Source of the DNA: Desulfovirgula sp.
GTDB lineage: Bacteria; Bacillota; Desulfotomaculia; Desulfotomaculales; Desulfovirgulaceae
Assembly: GCA_020725525.1 (NCBI GenBank)
Contig: DYEX01000158.1
Coordinates: 1-64,000, forward strand
Length of the DNA stretch: 64,000 bases
Direction: 5' to 3'
The translations under genes were made by a program, and so were the position numbers. The notes under the pieces were generated by a model. The model was not told the origin of the DNA. It did not search any database and worked only from the letters and a program-made list of their open reading frames with translations. Position 1 is the stretch's first letter. Each line of letters starts with the position of its first letter. This document shows, piece after piece, positions 5,760 to 16,178 of the stretch.

Positions 5760-5888
5760 TTACTTACGCAGCTCTTCGGGCACCTCCGGCTGGTACCACG
5801 TAACCCAACTGGCGGGATAAATACCCGTAGCAGCCATTACCATGGCCACAGTAGCTACGACCCCCAAGAGCCAGTGCTTAAGCCGCAT
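5760..5888 (-). CDS. agrD: AgrD-like cyclic peptide autoinducer precursor (42 aa)
   Basis: Propeptide that AgrB would cut and cyclise into a secreted signal. It begins MRLKHWLLGVVATVAMV, a basic then hydrophobic membrane-binding leader. It ends in YQPEVPEELRK, matching the conserved acidic tail PEVPEEL of AgrD-type precursors. The stretch between, TGIYPASWVTW, has no Cys; the Ser would be the ring-closing residue, giving a lactone rather than a thiolactone, as known for a few staphylococcal peptides. AAGGAGG precedes ATG 5888, and the first 11 nt overlap the end of agrB. The exact ring size and N-terminal cut are not readable from the sequence. Confidence 0.85.
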   Translation of the reverse strand: MRLKHWLLGVVATVAMVMAATGIYPASWVTWYQPEVPEELRK

Positions 5889-6528
5889 TGTTCACACCTC
5901 CTTTACCTGGTATGAGTATAGAGTGCAGCCGGCTCAGGAAAACGTCCAGCCATTCTATAAAGCGGTAGCCGGCCGGAGTAACGGTAACGGCTTGAAAAGC
6001 CAGGCCCAGGGCGCTGGCGGCCAGCAGGTCCTCCCGCAGGGAGAGGAGCCAGGCCGCGGCCAGGTAACATAGGGGTACCAGCAGGGAAATTATTTTCAGC
6101 ATTCGGCGGTAGCCTTCCCGGGTGATTGGCTTGGCCGGGGTATCCGCCGGCGCCCAAATTAGGGCAACTATAATGGCGAAAAGTGCCGCAGCCAGGGCCA
6201 TTTCCGTACCAGGGACGTTACTTTCCCCCAGCCAGCGGGCCAGAAAACCCAGGCCTGTGAAGGTGGTTAGAGAGCCGATCAGGCAACGGTAATAGGCGGT
6301 GCAGTGGGCCCCCCCGGCCGCCAGGCGGAAAGCCACACTGGCCAGCACTACCGCGGCAACCTGGGGGAAGATGCCCAGCAGCAGGGGTATAGTTACAAAA
6401 CAAACAAGTTTCACCACTGCGCCCAGGAGCAGCTCCAGGCCGTAGGCCATCACCGCCACCCGCTCCTCCTGCTGCAGTTCTTCGCCCAGCCAGGAGGCAA
6501 TTCTCTGGGCCAGGTTGTGGATCATCAC
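5878..6528 (-). CDS. agrB: AgrB-like autoinducer-processing membrane peptidase
   Basis: Cysteine endopeptidase that removes the acidic tail of the AgrD-like propeptide and helps form the cyclic signal. The motif RLAAGGAHCTAYYRC places His75 and Cys82 with the same seven-residue spacing as the catalytic His77/Cys84 of Staphylococcus aureus AgrB. Five to six hydrophobic helices follow. Length 216 aa is normal for the family. Its start overlaps the stop of the kinase gene (ATGA) and its end overlaps agrD by 11 nt, so all three are translationally coupled in the order kinase-agrB-agrD. Confidence 0.9.
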   Translation of the reverse strand: MMIHNLAQRIASWLGEELQQEERVAVMAYGLELLLGAVVKLVCFVTIPLLLGIFPQVAAVVLASVAFRLAAGGAHCTAYYRCLIGSLTTFTGLGFLARWLGESNVPGTEMALAAALFAIIVALIWAPADTPAKPITREGYRRMLKIISLLVPLCYLAAAWLLSLREDLLAASALGLAFQAVTVTPAGYRFIEWLDVFLSRLHSILIPGKGGVNNAA

Positions 6529-7367
6529 TCTCCACCTGCCTTGGGTAGGGTTACCGTAAAGATGGTGGGCGGGGAGGTTAGCCGCACCTGCCCACCGTGC
6601 TGTTCCACTATCTCCCGTACAATGGCCAGCCCCAGGCCTCTGTTTTCCCCCTTGGTAGAAAAGCCGGGCTCAAAAATCTTTTCCCTTATATCCTCTCTTA
6701 TTTCCGGGCCGGAGTTGCCTACCGAGAGGATATAGCTTTGCTCGTCTTCTCTTATTTCCATCCTGACGTAACGGTCCCTGGTCGCTAAAAACATCACCGC
6801 TTCCATGGCGTTGTCCAGCAGGTTGCCCAGTATCCGGTTCAGGTTGTGGGGGCGCATGGTCAGCTTGCCCAGGTCGCTTTCGACGAGCAGGCCGAAGCTG
6901 ATGTTGCGGTTGGCCGCCAGGGCCGCCTTTTGCTGGATCAGGGCGGCCACCTCGGGCTGCCTCAGCCGCAGGGTTTGGGAAAGAATGCGGATGTCCCCCG
7001 TCACCTCGGCCAGGTACTCCCGGGCGCTTTCCAGCTTGCCCAACTGCAGCATGCCGTACACGGCCTGCAGGTGGCTGATGAAGTCGTGGCGCTGGGCCCG
7101 GATGTTGCGGATCATTTCCTCCAGGTCCTGGATGTGTTTGGCCTGTTGGCGTATTAAGTTGTCCTGTTCTTCTAAAACCAGTGACTTTCGTAATAAAATA
7201 AACCCTAAGACAGTATTACCAAAAATTACTATGTCAACTATTACTATCCAACCCAGTGGAATAGAAGCATTGAAATAAACCAGGTACTGAGTAAAAAGAC
7301 AAATAAGTAATGCCTGGCCCAAACTAAAAACTGCCATTAAATAATTTGGAAATGATAGTGTGCTCAT
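6525..7367 (-). CDS. Membrane sensor histidine kinase, Spo0B/AgrC-like
   Basis: Two N-terminal hydrophobic helices (about residues 9-32 and 40-60) lead into a coiled linker. Then comes the phospho-acceptor motif RHDFISHLQAVYGML with His94, of the Spo0B/AgrC/CitA type. A GHKL ATPase domain follows, with NLLDNAMEA near residue 183 and GLGLAIVREIV near 250. Its place directly before agrBD, and 2 nt after a multi-spanning membrane protein, makes it the likely receptor kinase for the cyclic peptide. Canonical AgrC has six to seven membrane helices in one chain; here the extra helices may come from the separate upstream protein. No response regulator gene is next to it. Confidence 0.86.
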   Translation of the reverse strand: MSTLSFPNYLMAVFSLGQALLICLFTQYLVYFNASIPLGWIVIVDIVIFGNTVLGFILLRKSLVLEEQDNLIRQQAKHIQDLEEMIRNIRAQRHDFISHLQAVYGMLQLGKLESAREYLAEVTGDIRILSQTLRLRQPEVAALIQQKAALAANRNISFGLLVESDLGKLTMRPHNLNRILGNLLDNAMEAVMFLATRDRYVRMEIREDEQSYILSVGNSGPEIREDIREKIFEPGFSTKGENRGLGLAIVREIVEQHGGQVRLTSPPTIFTVTLPKAGGE

Positions 7368-7369
7368 CC

Positions 7370-7870
7370 TTAATCAGACTCCCGGTCTTTTGTTCGGTTA
7401 GAACGGTAAAAGTGTGGTGATCGTAACGAAAACTTTTTTCTTATACACCAAAAGGTCATTAAAGCCAGCACAATTAGTTCCGGGATGGCTAATAAAATAC
7501 GAAGGGTTTTAGATTCCCAAATTTCAGTGATTGTTTTGCCCGTGAAAAACAATAATAAAGGACATAGAAGCATTTCCACTGTTGCTACGATAACAATCCC
7601 TATCATTGCCACACAGATGGCAACAGGAATAGAGGTTTTAAAAAAGATAAGCACAAGAACAGCAACTGCAATTATCCCGATTAAAGTATGTACTCCGTAG
7701 GGTATGGGTAGTTCACGTACGTAATAGGCACACAGTGAAGAAAGTACAGCTGCCGGAATAATCCGCTGCCATTTGAGTTCTATGCCCATAAGGGTTAACC
7801 CCAAAGTCAGGATGATGATACTCTCCGGAATAGACTGAAAAATCAAAGCCAGCAGAGGCATTTGGTCCAT
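7370..7870 (-). CDS. Hypothetical multi-spanning membrane protein of the agr-like operon
   Basis: About five hydrophobic helices, then a basic cytoplasmic tail (IRKKFSLRSPHFYRSNRTKD). I do not recognise a Pfam-level family. It is first in the operon and ends 2 nt before the kinase start. The kinase has only two membrane helices while AgrC receptors usually have six or seven, so this protein could be the missing sensor part. That is inference from gene order. Start ATG 7870 was chosen for its GGAGAG site 8 nt upstream; an in-frame ATG at 7966 would add 32 residues that do not look like protein. Confidence 0.7.
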   Translation of the reverse strand: MDQMPLLALIFQSIPESIIILTLGLTLMGIELKWQRIIPAAVLSSLCAYYVRELPIPYGVHTLIGIIAVAVLVLIFFKTSIPVAICVAMIGIVIVATVEMLLCPLLLFFTGKTITEIWESKTLRILLAIPELIVLALMTFWCIRKKFSLRSPHFYRSNRTKDRESD

Positions 7871-7965
7871 GGTTGTCTCTCCATTTAAGATTGTCGGTAT
7901 AATACTCATCACGGGTTTCAGCCACCCATCCTGCAACTTCCCCGTCCCTGGTGCAATTGCTTCCA

Positions 7966-8004
7966 TTAAAAGCCATTCATTGGCATATATTTCTGCAGAA
8001 ACAA
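7966..8004 (-). CDS. Possible 12-codon leader ORF upstream of the agr-like operon
   Basis: TTG 8004 follows GAAGGAGA at good spacing and opens a 12-residue frame, MFLQKYMPMNGF, whose TAA overlaps the ATG at 7966. It might be a regulatory leader peptide. With so few codons it may equally be chance; the strong Shine-Dalgarno match is the only real support. Confidence 0.3.
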   Translation of the reverse strand: MFLQKYMPMNGF

Positions 8005-9099: not shown

Positions 9100-10452
9100 T
9101 TAACTGGTGATAATACCGTATTTTTGTGCCCGGTATAACAGGGCCGAACGGGTAATACCCAGTAACTGGGCGGCACGGGTTTGATTGCCCCCGCTTTTCT
9201 GCAGGGCCTTGACGATCAGCTCCTTTTCCACCTGTTCTAAAGAAATGCCTTCGTCGGGAAAGTGGATCACCAGTTCCTTTTCATTTTGGGGTGTTTGTAG
9301 AAGCTCCTTGGGCAGGTGTTCGGGTAAAATCTCATTGCCCTGGCAAATTATTGCTGCCCGCTCGATCACGTTTTGCAGTTCGCGGATATTTCCCGGCCAG
9401 TGGTAATTGCACAGCAGTTCCATGGCCTCCGGGGAAATTTTGTTTACCAGGTACTTCGGGCGGAATTTTTCTAAGAAGTGGTTTGCTAAAAGGGGAATAT
9501 CCTCCTTTCTTTCCCTTAGTGGCGGTAGATGGATCTGGAACACATTCAGGCGGTAATAGAGATCCTCTCTAAAAAGCCCCTTTTCTATAGCTTCCGTCAG
9601 GTTGCGGTTTGTGGCCGCGATAACCCGTACATCGACATGGATAGTTTCTGTTCCTCCCACCCTTTCGAAGGACATTTCCTGAAGTACCCGCAAGAGCTTG
9701 GCCTGCATGGAAAGGGACATTTCGGCAATCTCATCAAGAAAGATAGTGCCCCGGTCGGCCAGTTCAAAACGGCCCAGTTTACGGGAAGTGGCTCCGGTAA
9801 AGGCCCCCTTTTCATGGCCGAAGAGTTCGCTTTCCAGCAAATGTTCGGGCAGGGCCGCGCAGTTAATGGCAATAAAAGGTCCGTCCCTGCGGGGGCTGTT
9901 CTGGTGAATGGCTACTGCCGCCACTTCTTTACCGGTACCGCTTTCCCCGGTAATTAACACGGTGGCGTTGCTGGCGGCCACCCGTTCGATCAGTTTAACC
10001 ACTTCCTGGATGGCCGGGCTTTTCCCTACCAGTTTACTATACTTTTTGGTTAATTCGGAGCGCAGGAAACTGACCTCGTTGGCCAACTGGGTGATCACCA
10101 GGTTTTGTTTGATCACTATTTTCAATTCGTCCAGATCAAAGGGCTTGGTGATATAGTCGGCGGCCCCGATTTTCATGGCCTCAATAGCCGTTTCGATGGT
10201 ACCGTGGGCGGTGAGAATGATGACCGGTAGTTGAGGTTGCATTTCCCTGGCCTTACGGAGTACCTCCATCCCGTCCATCTCGGGCATTTTTAAATCCAGG
10301 ATTACCAGCGAAGGCTGTCTCTCGCGAATTAACTCCAATCCTTTGAATGCGGAAGTGGTGGTCAGCACATGGTAACCTTCCTGTTGCATGGCCCGTTCCA
10401 GTGCCCAGCAAAGATGTTGTTCATCATCAATGATCAGGATTGTTGGTACCAT
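9100..10452 (-). CDS. Sigma-54-dependent response regulator (NtrC family)
   Basis: Transcription activator for sigma-54 RNA polymerase. Receiver domain at residues 1-120 with acidic pocket DD (9-10) and phospho-acceptor Asp53 in ILDLKMPEMDG. AAA+ domain at about 145-385 with Walker A GESGTGKE, the sigma-54-contacting GAFTGA loop, and Walker B ADRGTIFLDEI. A Fis-type helix-turn-helix lies at the end (GGNQTRAAQLLGITRSALLYR). All parts are intact at 450 aa. It is encoded 3 nt after its kinase. The only clear -24/-12 promoter in the window, with two 16-bp repeated upstream sites, lies just beyond the kinase gene, so it is the likely target. Confidence 0.95.
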   Translation of the reverse strand: MVPTILIIDDEQHLCWALERAMQQEGYHVLTTTSAFKGLELIRERQPSLVILDLKMPEMDGMEVLRKAREMQPQLPVIILTAHGTIETAIEAMKIGAADYITKPFDLDELKIVIKQNLVITQLANEVSFLRSELTKKYSKLVGKSPAIQEVVKLIERVAASNATVLITGESGTGKEVAAVAIHQNSPRRDGPFIAINCAALPEHLLESELFGHEKGAFTGATSRKLGRFELADRGTIFLDEIAEMSLSMQAKLLRVLQEMSFERVGGTETIHVDVRVIAATNRNLTEAIEKGLFREDLYYRLNVFQIHLPPLRERKEDIPLLANHFLEKFRPKYLVNKISPEAMELLCNYHWPGNIRELQNVIERAAIICQGNEILPEHLPKELLQTPQNEKELVIHFPDEGISLEQVEKELIVKALQKSGGNQTRAAQLLGITRSALLYRAQKYGIITS

Positions 10453-10455
10453 GGT

Positions 10456-11985
10456 TTAGGCTTGCCCCCCTGTAGGATCCATTATGGGTAAACGCACGGT
10501 AAAGGTGGCTCCTTTTTCACTGGATGTCACATCAATGTTTCCACCATGGCTGGCGATGATCTGGTGACTGATGGATAATCCCAGTCCGGTTCCGTCTTTC
10601 CGGGTGGTATAAAAGGGATCGAAAATCCGCGAGAGTTCCTCGCTGGCAATCCCTGGACCGGTATCGCTGAACTGAATGTATACGTGGTTGTTGTCAGCGC
10701 AGGTTTTGATGGTCAACCTGCCTCCGTTGGGCATGGCCTGAACGGCATTCAGGATTAGATTGACAAACACCTGTTTAATCCGCTCTCCGTCCACTTCTAT
10801 CAGCGGGATGTTCGGATCCTTTTCTAAACTTAACTGTACTTGATGCTGGCGCAGCAGGGGAGTGGTAAATGTAAGCACTTTTTCGAGCAGAGAATTTACC
10901 GACGCGGGATGGACAAAATTTTTCGTCGGCCGGCCGAAATCCAGTAACTCCTGGATGATTCTGTTCTGCCGGTCGATTTGTTCTTTTATGACTTCGGTAT
11001 ATTGTTTGATGTCTTGTATGCCTTTCAAATCCTGTTCCATGACCTGAATGGTGGTTTTGACTACGGTAATGGGGTTGCGCAGTTCGTGGGCTATGCCGGT
11101 GACCAAACGCCCGAGCGCGGCCAGACGTTCGGAGCGGTGTAGCTGCTCCTCCAGCTTTTCTTTTTCGGCGATGGCGCGGGCCATGCGGTTGATGGCCCGG
11201 GCAATTTGGCCGGCTTCTCCGGGCAGGTCCGGAAGCAGGTGGTTCAAGTCCTTTTCTAAATGGCCCAGCCCTTCCTTAATCTGGTTGACAGACTTAACCA
11301 GATTGTGGACCAGAAACAGGACTCCTCCGGTGCAGGCAAAGAAAACAAAAAGGGTCACGTAGCGGGAAATAAGGCGGAAGTAACGACTCTGGGCAAAGAT
11401 GGGATGGAGCCGTTCATCCACCCAGGCTACAGCCACCAGCTTTCCATCTATCATGACGGGTGTGAGATATTCAAATGTTTCATCATTTAAGCTGGTAGTC
11501 AGCCGGGCCAGGGGACGCTGACTGGCCACTACCGCCATCAGCCCTGAATCAGCCTCATTCAAAATGCGTCTTTCCCTTTCCCGGCTTTCCTGGGGAGAAA
11601 GCTGGCGGTACTCATGTAAAAAACCCTGTACAAAAATTTGTTTGCTTTCCGGCAAATAAAGCCCAAACCTCACGCCGGGAAAGTTGGGCACCAGTGGCCC
11701 GGTGACCTCGGCAAAGCTGGCCTCCAGGTAACTGGCCCGGATTTCCGGGGCCAGATTCACCAGTTTTTCGCCCCGGAGTTTGTTCTGCAGAGTTTCCAGC
11801 AACTCGGGAACAACCTGCTTGTGCAGTAAAGAACCAAGGCGTTCCTCCAGGGAAGAAATCATGGCTTCTTCACTTTTGGTGGCAAAGATGAGGTCGTAGA
11901 GCAGCAATAAAACCGGAATCAGCAGTAATACGACGGTGATGGCCATGATTTGAAAGCGCAAACTGCGCCAGGTGACGCTGCTCAT
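10456..11985 (-). CDS. Membrane histidine kinase paired with the sigma-54 activator
   Basis: Sensor kinase with one N-terminal helix (about residues 12-32), an extracytoplasmic sensor of about 170 residues and a second helix near 220. A HAMP-like linker follows, then HisKA with HELRNPITVV, and an HATPase domain with NLILNAVQAM, DTGPGI and GTGLGLSI. Start ATG 11985 has GAGGGAG upstream; the longer frame from 12027 adds 14 residues without support. It shares an operon with the NtrC-type regulator 3 nt downstream. The outer sensor domain suggests an external ligand; its identity is unknown. Confidence 0.92.
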   Translation of the reverse strand: MSSVTWRSLRFQIMAITVVLLLIPVLLLLYDLIFATKSEEAMISSLEERLGSLLHKQVVPELLETLQNKLRGEKLVNLAPEIRASYLEASFAEVTGPLVPNFPGVRFGLYLPESKQIFVQGFLHEYRQLSPQESRERERRILNEADSGLMAVVASQRPLARLTTSLNDETFEYLTPVMIDGKLVAVAWVDERLHPIFAQSRYFRLISRYVTLFVFFACTGGVLFLVHNLVKSVNQIKEGLGHLEKDLNHLLPDLPGEAGQIARAINRMARAIAEKEKLEEQLHRSERLAALGRLVTGIAHELRNPITVVKTTIQVMEQDLKGIQDIKQYTEVIKEQIDRQNRIIQELLDFGRPTKNFVHPASVNSLLEKVLTFTTPLLRQHQVQLSLEKDPNIPLIEVDGERIKQVFVNLILNAVQAMPNGGRLTIKTCADNNHVYIQFSDTGPGIASEELSRIFDPFYTTRKDGTGLGLSISHQIIASHGGNIDVTSSEKGATFTVRLPIMDPTGGQA

Positions 11986-12035
11986 GCTCTCCCTCTTCTC
12001 CTGTTTAACCGGGGTGACCGATAACAAACACCTGC

Positions 12036-12051
12036 TGTTTGAAAACAGACA
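12036..12051 (+). promoter_or_regulatory. Upstream activator site 1 (TGTTTGAAAACAGACA)
   Basis: 16-bp site that matches site 2 on the other strand at 15 of 16 positions; its core CTGTTTgaAAACAG is a palindrome. It lies about 145 bp upstream of the -24/-12 promoter and is a likely binding site for the adjacent NtrC-type activator. Confidence 0.65.
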
Positions 12052-12113
12052 GCTCCAGGCCTTTTGTAATAACCTTCACAACGCATTTGGAGCTATCTCG
12101 TTAGTTAAAGAAG

Positions 12114-12129
12114 TGTCTGTTTTCAGACA
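12114..12129 (-). promoter_or_regulatory. Upstream activator site 2 (TGTCTGAAAACAGACA)
   Basis: Inverted copy of site 1 inside the perfect 7-bp repeat GTGTCTG-TTTT-CAGACAC (12113-12130). It lies about 60 bp upstream of the -24/-12 promoter, a normal distance for enhancer-bound NtrC-type proteins. Confidence 0.68.
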
Positions 12130-12181
12130 CCAGCCCCCTGTGACCACTGGACGAAACCGGCTTTCTGCGGAAGTGAAGGCC

Positions 12182-12197
12182 TGGTACGGAAAATGCA
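12182..12197 (+). promoter_or_regulatory. Sigma-54 (-24/-12) promoter
   Basis: TGGTACGGAAAATGCA fits TGGCAC-N5-TTGCA with the exact 10-bp gap between GG and GC. It points toward the 229-aa gene and the TauE permease. The adjacent gene encodes a sigma-54 activator, and two matched upstream sites are present. Confidence 0.75.
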
Positions 12198-12378
12198 CAG
12201 GGAGGTTAATAACTTTTTTCACAAGCCTTTGCGTTTATTATAACACAGTGGCTGGGTTAAAGAAACCTCTCCGGGTCTTAAATGCGAGGAGCTTTTGTCG
12301 GCTCACTTGTGCATGGGCTTACAAGCACAAGCCCTTTCGCGAAGTTGGCTTTGGCAAGGTTGGTCAGGTGAGGTGAGG

Positions 12379-13068
12379 ATGTCTAAGACAAAGGGGAGAG
12401 GGTCATGGTGGAGAGTGCAGCTTTTTAATCGCCGCAAGGAGGAGTTCTTGAAAAGCATTGCGCAGCAGCGCACGGAAGATAAGGGAGAAAAGGCCGGCGT
12501 GGTGCGCGAACTGAAAAAGTTTCTGGACTGGTTTGAGCACTGGTTGCAGAGTGAAGAAGTGGCTGAAATTGAACCTGTCTCTCCTGCACCCCAGGAAAAA
12601 ACCTTCGACGAATTTTTGGACGAAGTGCTGGCCGAGACCAAACGCATCCTGGCGGAGCAAAAAATAAACGTGACCTATACCCTGCCCGGGCAAAACCTGG
12701 GCATCAGCGAGTCCTGGAAGTGTGTAAAAGTTTTTGGTAATAACGATATTTATTACCGCATTGGTCGGACCCGGCCGCGGAAGGGACCCTATCAGGGGCG
12801 GGAACTTTTGGTTATCGACCTGGTTATGGACGGCTATAAAAAGCAGGTTTTTCTACCACTTTTGGAACTAAAGGCGGAAATTGAAAAACACCTGGGAGCG
12901 GTCCTGGAAAGGGAGTTGCCCAAGGTGGAGGCAACCGGCAAATACCGGCTGAAAGTAATCCTACCCTACGAAATTGTGCGCAGGGGGGATACCCGACTGG
13001 CGGCGCGTAAATTTGCCAGCTTTATTGCGGTGACCAAACCATTAATTAACCGGTTGGGCATTCAATGA
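12379..13068 (+). CDS. Hypothetical 229-aa protein under the sigma-54 promoter
   Basis: I do not recognise a family. The N-terminus is basic (MSKTKGRGSWWRVQLFNRRKEE); a charged helical stretch follows to about residue 100, with acidic EVLAETKRILAEQ. The C-terminal 120 residues are mixed alpha/beta (YYRIGRTRPRKGPY, ELLVIDLVMDGYKKQVFLPLL). There is no signal peptide or membrane helix, so it is predicted to be cytoplasmic. ATG 12379 follows GGTGAGGTGAGG; the frame upstream to 12295 has no good site. It is the first gene after the -24/-12 promoter and precedes a TauE permease by 187 bp, so a role with that transporter is possible. Confidence 0.75.
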   Translation: MSKTKGRGSWWRVQLFNRRKEEFLKSIAQQRTEDKGEKAGVVRELKKFLDWFEHWLQSEEVAEIEPVSPAPQEKTFDEFLDEVLAETKRILAEQKINVTYTLPGQNLGISESWKCVKVFGNNDIYYRIGRTRPRKGPYQGRELLVIDLVMDGYKKQVFLPLLELKAEIEKHLGAVLERELPKVEATGKYRLKVILPYEIVRRGDTRLAARKFASFIAVTKPLINRLGIQ

Positions 13069-13255
13069 TTGGCTGAAATTTACTGTGGTGATGGGGGGGT
13101 ATCGAGATTACTTGAGGGGGTGGTAAGAAACAAGTGAGCAATCCGAACAATAACGGGAGAGTGGTCCCGGTGGTTGTCTGACTGGTTCCCGGCAATTGCG
13201 TGGAGGGTGCCCGGGAATTTCAGGCATACTAACAACGATACTGGAGGGATAAGGC

Positions 13256-14209
13256 ATGCTTGATTGGATAACTACCTTTATGGGGGGCGGGCTGGCGGCC
13301 AAAGCAACTGCCGCCGTGACCACTGCTCCGGCGGCGGTGAATGCGGCTGCCGGGACGCCGGGAATGCCCTGGTGGGTGTGGCCCCTGCTCCTGTTCATTA
13401 CCACTTTCGTGCTGGGCATTGTGGCCGTGCTGGGGGGCGTAGGTGGCGGTGTTTTGTTTGTACCCATCGTGGGCAGCTTTTTCCCCTTTAATCTGGACTT
13501 TGTCCGTGGGGCGGGCCTGTTAGTTGCCCTGGCCGGGGCGCTGGCGGCGGGACCGGGGCTTTTAAAGCTTAACCTGGCCAATCTGCGCCTTGCCCTGCCG
13601 GTGGCCTTAATCGCTTCCACCTTCAGCATGGTGGGGGCCTTTATCGGGCTGGCCTTACCTAATAACGTGGTGCAGACCGCTCTGGGGATTACCATCGTGA
13701 TGATTGCCGTTTTGTTCGTGGTTTCAAAAAACACGGAATTTCCCCAGGTGGGCGGAAGTGATAGGCTGGCCCGCTATCTAAAAATAGGTGGCACCTATTA
13801 CGAACGTTCTTCGGGTAAAACCGTAGACTGGTCGGTATGGCGCACACCACAGGGCTTCCTTTTGTTTATTGCCATCGGGATCATGGCCGGTATGTTCGGT
13901 TTGGGTGCCGGATGGGCGAATGTACCGGTGTTGAACCTGCTCATGGGGGCGCCTCTTAAAGTGGCGGTGGGCACCAGCAAGTTCCTCCTCTCCATTACTG
14001 ATACCTCGGCGGCCTGGGTGTACCTGAACCAGGGTGCGGTGCTGCCCGTGATCGCCGTGCCATCTATCATAGGCATCATGTTGGGCTCCTTTGTCGGAGT
14101 ACGGTTGCTGGCTACGGCCAAGCCTAAGGCCGTGAAATACCTGGTGATCGTATTGCTCCTGGCTGCGGGGCTGCGTTCGCTGCTCAAGGGTCTGGGGATC
14201 TGGAACTAG
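13256..14209 (+). CDS. TauE/SafE-family anion permease
   Basis: Membrane exporter of the TauE/SafE (COG0730) family; known members move sulfite, sulfoacetate or related organic anions. Eight or so hydrophobic helices fall in two halves, with the family glycine motifs GVGGGVLFVPIV near residue 61 and GLGAGWANVPVLNLL near 219. An insert of about 45 hydrophilic residues (SDRLARYLKIGGTYYERSSGK) separates the halves. ATG 13256 has GGAGGGATAAGG upstream. The gene ends 25 nt before a DUF1634-like partner, an arrangement seen elsewhere for this family. The substrate is not known; sulfur anions are a guess from family and likely host. Confidence 0.88.
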   Translation: MLDWITTFMGGGLAAKATAAVTTAPAAVNAAAGTPGMPWWVWPLLLFITTFVLGIVAVLGGVGGGVLFVPIVGSFFPFNLDFVRGAGLLVALAGALAAGPGLLKLNLANLRLALPVALIASTFSMVGAFIGLALPNNVVQTALGITIVMIAVLFVVSKNTEFPQVGGSDRLARYLKIGGTYYERSSGKTVDWSVWRTPQGFLLFIAIGIMAGMFGLGAGWANVPVLNLLMGAPLKVAVGTSKFLLSITDTSAAWVYLNQGAVLPVIAVPSIIGIMLGSFVGVRLLATAKPKAVKYLVIVLLLAAGLRSLLKGLGIWN

Positions 14210-14234
14210 GTTCAAAATATAAGGAGGGAGAAAT

Positions 14235-14717
14235 ATGGCCAGACCACAAGCGGAAATGTTGAAAACTTCCGTGCCCAGGGAGGTGCCCGTTGAAGCACCG
14301 GCGGCACCACGGGTGGAGGTGGCGCCGGAACAGGTGGCCTACGCTAACGTGCTCCTGTACGGATCCTGGGCGGGGATTGCCCTGTTGCTCCTGACCAATA
14401 TTATTTACTTCACCGGACTGGTTAAACCATACATTGAACCGGCCATGCTTCCCCAGTACTGGGGAATGAAGGCAAGCGAGTTTGTCCAGGTGGCGCACAT
14501 GCCCACCGGATGGAACTGGCTGAAGATGCTCGGTTACGCTGATTTCCTGAACTTTGTCGGCATGGCGCTCCTGGCCTCCCTGACCATCGTGGGGTACCTG
14601 ATTCTGTTGCCCGCCTATCTGAGTAAGAAGGACGTACCCTATACATTTATTGTCCTTACGGAAGTGGTGGTGCTGGTCCTGGCCGCTTCGGGCATTCTGG
14701 CTGTGGGCGGACATTGA
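14235..14717 (+). CDS. DUF1634-like membrane protein, partner of TauE permease
   Basis: 160-aa protein with a hydrophilic Pro/Val-rich N-terminus of about 35 residues and three hydrophobic helices (near 40-62, 97-125, 135-157). The composition, the position 25 nt behind a TauE/SafE gene and the size fit the DUF1634 family, often paired with such permeases; I see no sharper motif. ATG 14235 follows AAGGAGGGAG closely. It is likely a small accessory subunit of the permease. It ends the sigma-54-driven unit; a weak terminator follows. Confidence 0.7.
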   Translation: MARPQAEMLKTSVPREVPVEAPAAPRVEVAPEQVAYANVLLYGSWAGIALLLLTNIIYFTGLVKPYIEPAMLPQYWGMKASEFVQVAHMPTGWNWLKMLGYADFLNFVGMALLASLTIVGYLILLPAYLSKKDVPYTFIVLTEVVVLVLAASGILAVGGH

Positions 14718-14837: not shown

Positions 14838-15161
14838 TTAGCGAATGAAATAATTCACAAGACCGTACAGGCAAAGGACGGTGGGGATGGTCAAAGTGAG
14901 CACGGGCAAGATGAGTTGCCAGCGGTTAAACCGGGCATCTTTTTCTGCCCGCACGGCGCGGGAAATTTCAATTTCCGCGAAGGAATGGCTCAACTTTTTT
15001 TCCCACGTTCCAAAAGGGGGCAGCCCCGGATGATCTGGTAGAGGCGAATTCCGGAGGGGTTCGTAAAGGTAGATGATGTTATGCCGGTGATGGTAGCCGG
15101 CGGGTAGCCTGGCGGACCGTTTTTTAGCCCGGTATTGATTGCCATTAACCGGCCAGGACAT
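14838..15161 (-). CDS. Hypothetical 107-aa protein with C-terminal membrane helix
   Basis: No family recognised. About 78 hydrophilic, His/Pro-rich residues are followed by one membrane helix (LILPVLTLTIPTVLCLYGLV). ATG 15161 follows GGGAGGCGAGGG. It lies 27 nt after the second TauE-type permease on the same strand, so it is probably its small partner, as the DUF1634-like gene is for the first permease. The lack of similarity in sequence between the two partners means this is only positional inference. Confidence 0.6.
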   Translation of the reverse strand: MSWPVNGNQYRAKKRSARLPAGYHHRHNIIYLYEPLRNSPLPDHPGLPPFGTWEKKLSHSFAEIEISRAVRAEKDARFNRWQLILPVLTLTIPTVLCLYGLVNYFIR

Positions 15162-15188: not shown

Positions 15189-16178
15189 TTATAGACTTTT
15201 AAAGCTTTGTGGCACGTTGCTGCGGGATAAAGCTTCATTCCAGCGCGCCTGGTAAAGGGTGATTAAGGTTAAGCCCAGCATGGTGACCAGGGCTGACCCA
15301 AACATGAGAGCGGTGGTATAAAGGGAGGCCAGGCCGGCCGCCCGGCTGCCAATCAAAACCGCGGCGGAGCTTAGCCCCCACCAGGCCAGGAAAATGCTTT
15401 TTTCCGGATTCTGGGGTTTGTACCGTTCGAGACGCCGCGCGTAAAGGTAACCGGTTAAATAGCCCGTGCAGAGACTGCCGAAAGTGAGCTCCGCTCCGGA
15501 AAAGGTGAACAGGTCGGAAAGGAAGATCACGGCAGCGAAGGCTCCCACCAGGTACAGGGTGAAAAAAGCGGTGGCGCGGGCCTGCTGGCGGGATAAACCC
15601 ATCAGGTACATCAGAAGTGGTTCCAGTACGGCCCGGGTGTTTAATCCGGCCAGGCCTGTGCAAAGGCCGATGGCTCCACTAACCAGGCTTACCCGGCCTA
15701 TGGTGATGAACCTTGGGGATGTCAGTCCCGGTGCCGTGAGGGGATACTTCCAGAACAGGCCTCCTGGAGGGAGTGGATTTTCATCCTCGTAGCCGAATTG
15801 GTGGTAGTGGCGATAACGGCTGGCAGCAATGAGAGCAGTGATCACGAAAATAGTGCTGAACAAAAAAATCAGGACTGCAGAACCTCCCGGCAGGACATTA
15901 AGCCGGGAGAGGAACTGCTTGCCGGTCACGATAAAGGGTAGGGATAATATCGCGATGGTCATGCCCACTCTTTTGTAGGCATGCCGGGTTATTTGCGGGT
16001 GGTATAATACCTTAAGATTACTGGCCGCGTTGAGGAAAATACCGCCGCCGACGGCGGCCGGTAAGGGCAGGCCGCTGGTGATCAGCGGGGGGATGATAAG
16101 CAGCTGGTAAGCGGGACCGCCAAAGCGGTACAGAAATCCTCCCGCAAAGCCGATCAGGAAGAAGACTGCCGGGATCAT
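15189..16178 (-). CDS. Second TauE/SafE-family permease
   Basis: 329-aa membrane protein with about eight hydrophobic helices and the family's two-half layout: LIGFAGGFLYRFGGPAYQLLIIPPLI at the start and GLCTGLAGLNTRAVLEPLLMYLMG near residue 180. It differs strongly from the first TauE protein at 13256, so it is not a recent duplicate. It has its own promoter (16261-16289) and a 75-nt leader; a 107-aa single-helix protein follows in the same operon. The transported anion is unknown. Confidence 0.82.
   Translation of the reverse strand: MIPAVFFLIGFAGGFLYRFGGPAYQLLIIPPLITSGLPLPAAVGGGIFLNAASNLKVLYHPQITRHAYKRVGMTIAILSLPFIVTGKQFLSRLNVLPGGSAVLIFLFSTIFVITALIAASRYRHYHQFGYEDENPLPPGGLFWKYPLTAPGLTSPRFITIGRVSLVSGAIGLCTGLAGLNTRAVLEPLLMYLMGLSRQQARATAFFTLYLVGAFAAVIFLSDLFTFSGAELTFGSLCTGYLTGYLYARRLERYKPQNPEKSIFLAWWGLSSAAVLIGSRAAGLASLYTTALMFGSALVTMLGLTLITLYQARWNEALSRSNVPQSFKSL

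Follow-up and report, generated by a model that had tools for sequence, protein, structure and literature searches.

A putative sigma-54-dependent two-component switch for a TauE/SafE permease operon in Desulfovirgula

Permeases of the TauE/SafE (TSUP) family are abundant in sulfate reducers and lack assigned substrates in these organisms (PMC5840216, PMC4641369). In Desulfovibrio vulgaris, the NtrC-type regulators DVU0110 and DVUA0057 are described in excerpts of PMC4641369 as binding upstream of the sigma-54 operon DVU0132-DVU0133, which encodes a TSUP permease. For the Clostridiales, excerpts of PMC6615313 describe fifteen groups of enhancer-binding proteins with TGT and ACA half-sites that are 10-12 bp apart. 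The set includes XhpR (hyp-memP; Desulfotomaculum and others). A literature search returned no paper that joins sigma-54, TauE and sulfate reducers as terms.

The DNA analysed here is a stretch of 64,000 nucleotides from Desulfovirgula sp. (the window), in which a sensor kinase and an NtrC-type regulator are encoded divergently from a putative permease operon. The locus is likely a sigma-54 two-component switch that is dedicated to a single operon, and in its own genome the regulon probably comprises no other operon. Such a switch, with its defined boxes and sensor and its conserved partner, would provide a direct handle on TSUP permeases. The sensor allows ligand screening, the result of which should point to the transported compound, and the family of the first operon gene (p229) represents a conserved, testable annotation gap in sulfate-reducing Firmicutes.

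Control region and its conservation

The locus is composed of the following features.

9100..10452, minus strand: NtrC-type response regulator, 450 aa, assigned by Pfam domains and orthologues
10456..11985, minus strand: membrane sensor histidine kinase, 509 aa, assigned by Pfam, model and orthologue starts
12015..12030, no strand given: TGACCGATAACAAACA, probably a third and weaker activator box, which differs from the motif at two positions and lies 21 bp upstream of box 1
12036..12051, plus strand as read: activator box 1 TGTTTGAAAACAGACA, conserved, unique in the genome
12114..12129: activator box 2, TGTCTGTTTTCAGACA on the plus strand and TGTCTGAAAACAGACA on the minus strand, conserved, unique in the genome
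12182..12197, plus strand: predicted sigma-54 promoter TGGTACGGAAAATGCA (GG 12183-12184, GC 12195-12196), conserved in the genus and order
12379..13068, plus strand: p229, the first gene of the operon (229 aa), without a match in Pfam or NCBIfam, characterized by its relatives and a model
13256..14209, plus strand: TauE/SafE (TSUP) permease, 317 aa, PF01925, 121 bits (cut-off 32.6)
14235..14717, plus strand: DUF1634-like membrane protein, 160 aa, PF07843, 14.9 bits (cut-off 27.5)

The regulator consists of a receiver domain (Response_reg), an AAA+ domain with GAFTGA and Walker A motifs (Sigma54_activat, 256 bits in Pfam) and a Fis-type HTH domain (HTH_8), which is the composition of a sigma-54-dependent NtrC-family response regulator. 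Its orthologues exhibit 70-95% identity and adjoin the same genes. The kinase combines an extracellular Cache-like sensor (approximately residues 36-200) with HAMP, HisKA and HATPase_c domains. Neither reading frame is interrupted and both encode the expected domains, in agreement with the earlier note, which had described a divergently encoded kinase and an intact GAFTGA activator. The genome also contains rpoN (PF04552, E 1e-62), whose absence the same note had named as fatal to its proposal. The closest NCBIfam equivalogs of the pair, AtoSC and ZraSR, share its domain plan but differ in sensor and targets. An AtoSC or ZraSR identity was ruled out by scores below the equivalog cut-offs (AtoS, 401 versus 646 bits; AtoC, 537 versus 714). 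The kinase starts at ATG 11985, the same ATG that is used by its orthologues, and the activator boxes therefore lie outside the kinase gene.

Boxes 1 and 2 are found at the positions first proposed for them and are the only sites in the window with fewer than three mismatches to the motif; shuffled sequences give 0.54 matches at three or fewer mismatches. In the 3.24-Mb genome, TGTNTGNWWNCANACA occurs twice, only at boxes 1 and 2. The chance expectation is approximately half a site per genome by our own arithmetic, and two sites within 80 bp are therefore very unlikely to have arisen by chance. A third genome match, obtained with a looser box pattern (C69:16539), was not counted, as no sigma-54-type promoter is located beside it. 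Box 2 is read on the minus strand, consistent with the inverted orientation originally noted, but each box forms an inverted repeat of its own (TGTYTG-N4-CAGACA) and the orientation therefore means little. The unconstrained centre of the box is almost wholly A or T in the related loci. The two enhancer sites of the earlier note both stand, but there are probably three boxes, not two. Box pairs with a separation of 21-22 bp recur 23 times in the related loci, and the element at 12015-12030 stands at this distance from box 1. The third box is kept in six Desulfofundulus genomes, with hardly any variation across the genus in its right half.

Box 2 begins 68 bp ahead of the promoter element. The exact GG-N10-GC spacing claimed for this element is borne out, and within the window TGGYACGN5TGCW is matched perfectly by TGGTACGGAAAATGCA alone. 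A near-consensus GG-N10-GC element, upstream activator sites and rpoN are together the sequence hallmarks of a sigma-54-dependent promoter, from which a transcript start at about position 12208 is predicted. A consensus scan of the leader revealed no convincing sigma-70 promoter. Downstream of the predicted start, two segments (12205-12247, TTTATAACTTTTTTCACAAGCC...TATTATA; and 12309-12330, TGTGCATGGGSTTACAAGCACA) are nearly invariant in the six Desulfofundulus genomes. An Rfam search of the leader returned only an irrelevant weak match to a human lncRNA, and the leader folds no better than shuffled sequences (z -1.5); therefore, no RNA element is claimed for it.

The boxes and promoter are kept between the kinase start and p229 in the six Desulfofundulus genomes. 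For a broader comparison, a 450-bp region ahead of the kinase gene was searched at 58 loci, using 30 rounds of dinucleotide-preserving shuffles as a control. At least two boxes precede a sigma-54 promoter in 35 of the 58 upstream regions, compared with none in the 30 shuffled sets. The earlier note had suggested looking in relatives for the two boxes ahead of TauE genes, and this check is strongly positive across many genera. Short motifs can arise randomly, and weaker promoter-like sites are observed elsewhere in the window, as would be expected if the boxes and promoter were chance matches. However, the 0 in 30 shuffled sets versus 35 loci, the genome-wide uniqueness of the boxes and their conserved spacing leave this explanation virtually no probability, and it was ruled out on the basis of the shuffle control. 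In most loci, the promoter-nearest box starts ~56, 67-70, 77-78 or 88-90 bp upstream of the promoter, in steps of approximately one helical turn. The clustering at 10.5 bp was matched by random spacings in 0.6% of trials (p 0.006; 17 points at the genus level).

The layout is missing from four loci with a full regulator (L154, L161, L164 and L175) and from the control loci in which same-sensor kinases are accompanied by short receiver-only regulators (L150-L152, L169-L171, L173 and L174). One of these, L150, is located in the window's own genome (C188), where a second kinase with the same sensor adjoins another TSUP permease and a receiver-only regulator; boxes and sigma-54 promoter are both absent.

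The divergent kinase and regulator and the same target genes are conserved across genera. The regulator and kinase are divergent from p229-TSUP-DUF1634 in Desulfofundulus and Desulfovirgula and from TSUP-DUF1634-p229 in several other genera. A paralogous set contains TSUP, p229, a PAS-added kinase, a regulator and CBS-domain proteins in varying orientations. A CBS-domain gene is found downstream in several genera, in some of them with its own boxes and sigma-54 promoter. Among the paralogous p229/TSUP loci, L062, L065 and L067 adjoin an acetyl-CoA synthetase-like gene. The neighbour at L058 and L060 is instead acyl-CoA carboxylase-like and has a sigma-54-like promoter of its own. The comparative sequence data strongly back the sigma-54 circuit that the earlier note had described as complete: its boxes, promoter, rpoN, kinase and activator are all found, and the layout is conserved in relatives.

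Kinase sensor and permease

The N-terminus of the kinase was modelled as a Cache-like domain (pLDDT 82.6). In the model, this domain adopts a PAS-like fold between two transmembrane helices, following a long N-terminal helix, and the model and fold matches place it in the Cache type. The fold matches include WalK (5is1; Z 11.5, rmsd 3.2 over 126) and Tlp3 (4xmq; Z 11.3, rmsd 2.7 over 120), and the closest folds include pyruvate-, formate-, carboxylate- and citrate-binding domains. The sensor has no Pfam sequence match, and PDB sequence searches with the sensor, the permease and p229 returned nothing useful.

The target genes named in the earlier note are largely upheld. The TauE/SafE permease clears the curated PF01925 cut-off and the 229-aa protein lacks a family, but the third gene scores below the PF07843 cut-off and is DUF1634-like only. 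This gene follows the permease in 17 of the 34 loci that contain p229. The three genes presumably form one transcript, although a second promoter could lie in the 187 nt that separate p229 from the permease gene. The window's own genome has seven TSUP genes. Convergent to the operon are a second, distant TSUP permease (15189-16178, minus strand) and a small protein (14838-15161, minus strand) for which a single membrane helix is predicted. Relatives of this small protein are located near p229 in 16 of the 34 loci. Elsewhere in the window (5878-7966, minus strand), an AgrB-family protein (PF04647, 125.5 bits) adjoins a SpoOB-type/GHKL kinase and a 198-aa protein without assignment, a possible peptide-signalling cluster.

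The substrate of the permease is about as likely to be a sulfur oxyanion as a short carboxylate. The first reading, to which we give somewhat less than an even chance, is that the permease carries sulfite, thiosulfate or a sulfonate out of or into cells that respire sulfate and that the kinase senses the same compound outside the cell. The family is named after the sulfite exporter TauE, a constitutively expressed Archaeoglobus TauE homologue has been proposed for sulfite import (PMC3949148), and the window's own genome has dsrA. Moreover, the sensor is found in 52 of the 113 genomes of the class, and dsrA is present in 51 of these 52 versus 25 of the 61 without the sensor, but this association follows phylogeny and is confounded by shared ancestry. 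The operon contains no sulfur-metabolism gene, which argues against a role in sulfur oxyanion transport, as does the lack of substrate assignments for TSUP proteins in sulfate reducers (PMC5840216).

The second reading, a tentative one, is that the permease transports acetate, propionate, formate or similar short organic acids, which the kinase senses. The ligands of the closest sensor folds point in this direction, but many ligand classes are bound by Cache domains. The acetyl-CoA synthetase-like (L062, L065) and acyl-CoA carboxylase-like (L058, L060) neighbours of paralogous p229 loci also fit organic acids, although these genes belong to the paralogous set and not to this operon. In addition, excerpts of PMC4641369 describe Desulfovibrio PSE-family transporters that are co-regulated with lactate genes.

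The p229 family

The earlier note had placed the first gene in no recognised family. Pfam and NCBIfam searches likewise gave no match to p229, but the gene is not a stray one; it accompanies TSUP permeases and NtrC-type systems as a conserved partner. Its closest named matches are from Desulfofundulus thermosubterraneus (88% identity) and Desulfofundulus australicus (78%), and by these matches the genome is placed in Desulfofundulus. The family is found only in Desulfotomaculia-type genomes: in 20 of 60 relatives, at 34 loci of a public genome scan and in 5 of 398 genomes sampled from the phylum, each of the 5 belonging to the window's own order. Some matches carry the MAG labels Actinobacteria, Armatimonadetes or Deltaproteobacteria, which are probably wrong; their contigs fit the own order. 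Near the start of the gene (12379-12420), the window differs from five relatives by an 18-nt insertion and an 8-nt deletion, and the in-frame start therefore moves to ATG 12379 with the body of the protein intact.

Within 6 kb of p229, a TSUP gene and an NtrC-type regulator are each found in 31 of the 34 public genome loci, and a CBS-pair protein is found in 21. Given the seven TSUP genes of the own genome, the chance of such p229-TSUP proximity is ~3% by our own arithmetic. A p229 paralogue is also located beside a second NtrC-type system. That p229 is an independent cytoplasmic protein, merely sharing the regulator with the permease, is a minority reading of some weight: the gene order varies, one p229 gene (L093) adjoins a kinase and regulator with no TSUP gene in reach, and another (L095) has neither a TSUP gene nor a kinase and regulator. 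Its frequent proximity to TSUP genes, including those of the paralogous set with a different permease subtype, argues against independence, although co-occurrence does not itself show contact.

The p229 model (pLDDT 86.1) is composed of a helical hairpin and an α/β domain. Residues 73-228 match SycT (Z 9.1), Spa15 (Z 9.0) and YbjN (Z 7.3) with rmsd values of 3.1-4.4 Å and 7-15% identity; Z values of 7-9 are barely above those of unrelated models, and the modelled structure weakly resembles the type III chaperone/YbjN fold. An hhalign comparison with DUF4268 is colinear and weak (P 8e-5, probability 61%); in searches with this family (PF14088), the window p229 has no match and one relative has an E value of 0.018. 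p229 differs from class I type III secretion chaperones/YbjN and from DUF4268 in its extra N-terminal helical hairpin and its gene context. Matches in helices alone, to kinase dimerisation helices and to MscS-type channels, were not counted, as such helix arrangements are common.

The p229 family is undescribed and is a new element of the locus. A bolder and rather unlikely proposal is that p229 founds a regulatory family whose members link TSUP permeases with their sensor kinases in sulfate-reducing Firmicutes. Here, p229 would be a binding-fold adaptor that reports the transporter state to the two-component system, or that gates the transporter, in two parallel sigma-54 modules.

Proposed mechanism and comparison with known systems

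In the proposed mechanism, an extracellular small molecule, probably an anion given the modelled sensor fold, would bind the Cache-like domain of the kinase, which would then phosphorylate the NtrC-type regulator. The domain composition, conserved boxes and helical-turn spacing suggest that a regulator oligomer assembles on two or three boxes (12015, 12036 and 12114) and, through looping, reaches the sigma-54 promoter at 12182-12197 and opens it. The p229 - TSUP permease - DUF1634-like operon would then be made, presumably by co-transcription. Judging by its family, the permease most likely transports a small anion, for example sulfite, a sulfonate or a short carboxylate. Based on its co-occurrence and binding-type fold, p229 most likely acts as a soluble partner protein, bound either to the permease or to its kinase.

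This class of circuit is already known from sigma-54 control of TSUP genes in Desulfovibrio (excerpts of PMC4641369) and from TGT/ACA sites in Clostridiales (excerpts of PMC6615313); this regulon and p229 are absent from the descriptions in those excerpts. The boxes of the window, TGT-N10-ACA, are of the same type as the Clostridiales motifs excerpted from PMC6615313. In contrast, approximately 90% of the Clostridiales activators covered there are one-component proteins, whereas the window encodes a two-component system, and the same excerpts describe no TauE/TSUP regulon, with XhpR left out of the comparison. As far as the excerpted descriptions in PMC4641369 extend, the DVU0110/DVUA0057 regulons resemble the window in the NtrC-type control of a sigma-54 TSUP operon in a sulfate reducer. 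They differ in that the host is Desulfovibrio and not a Firmicute, that two regulators act on one target and that no p229 is mentioned in those excerpts.
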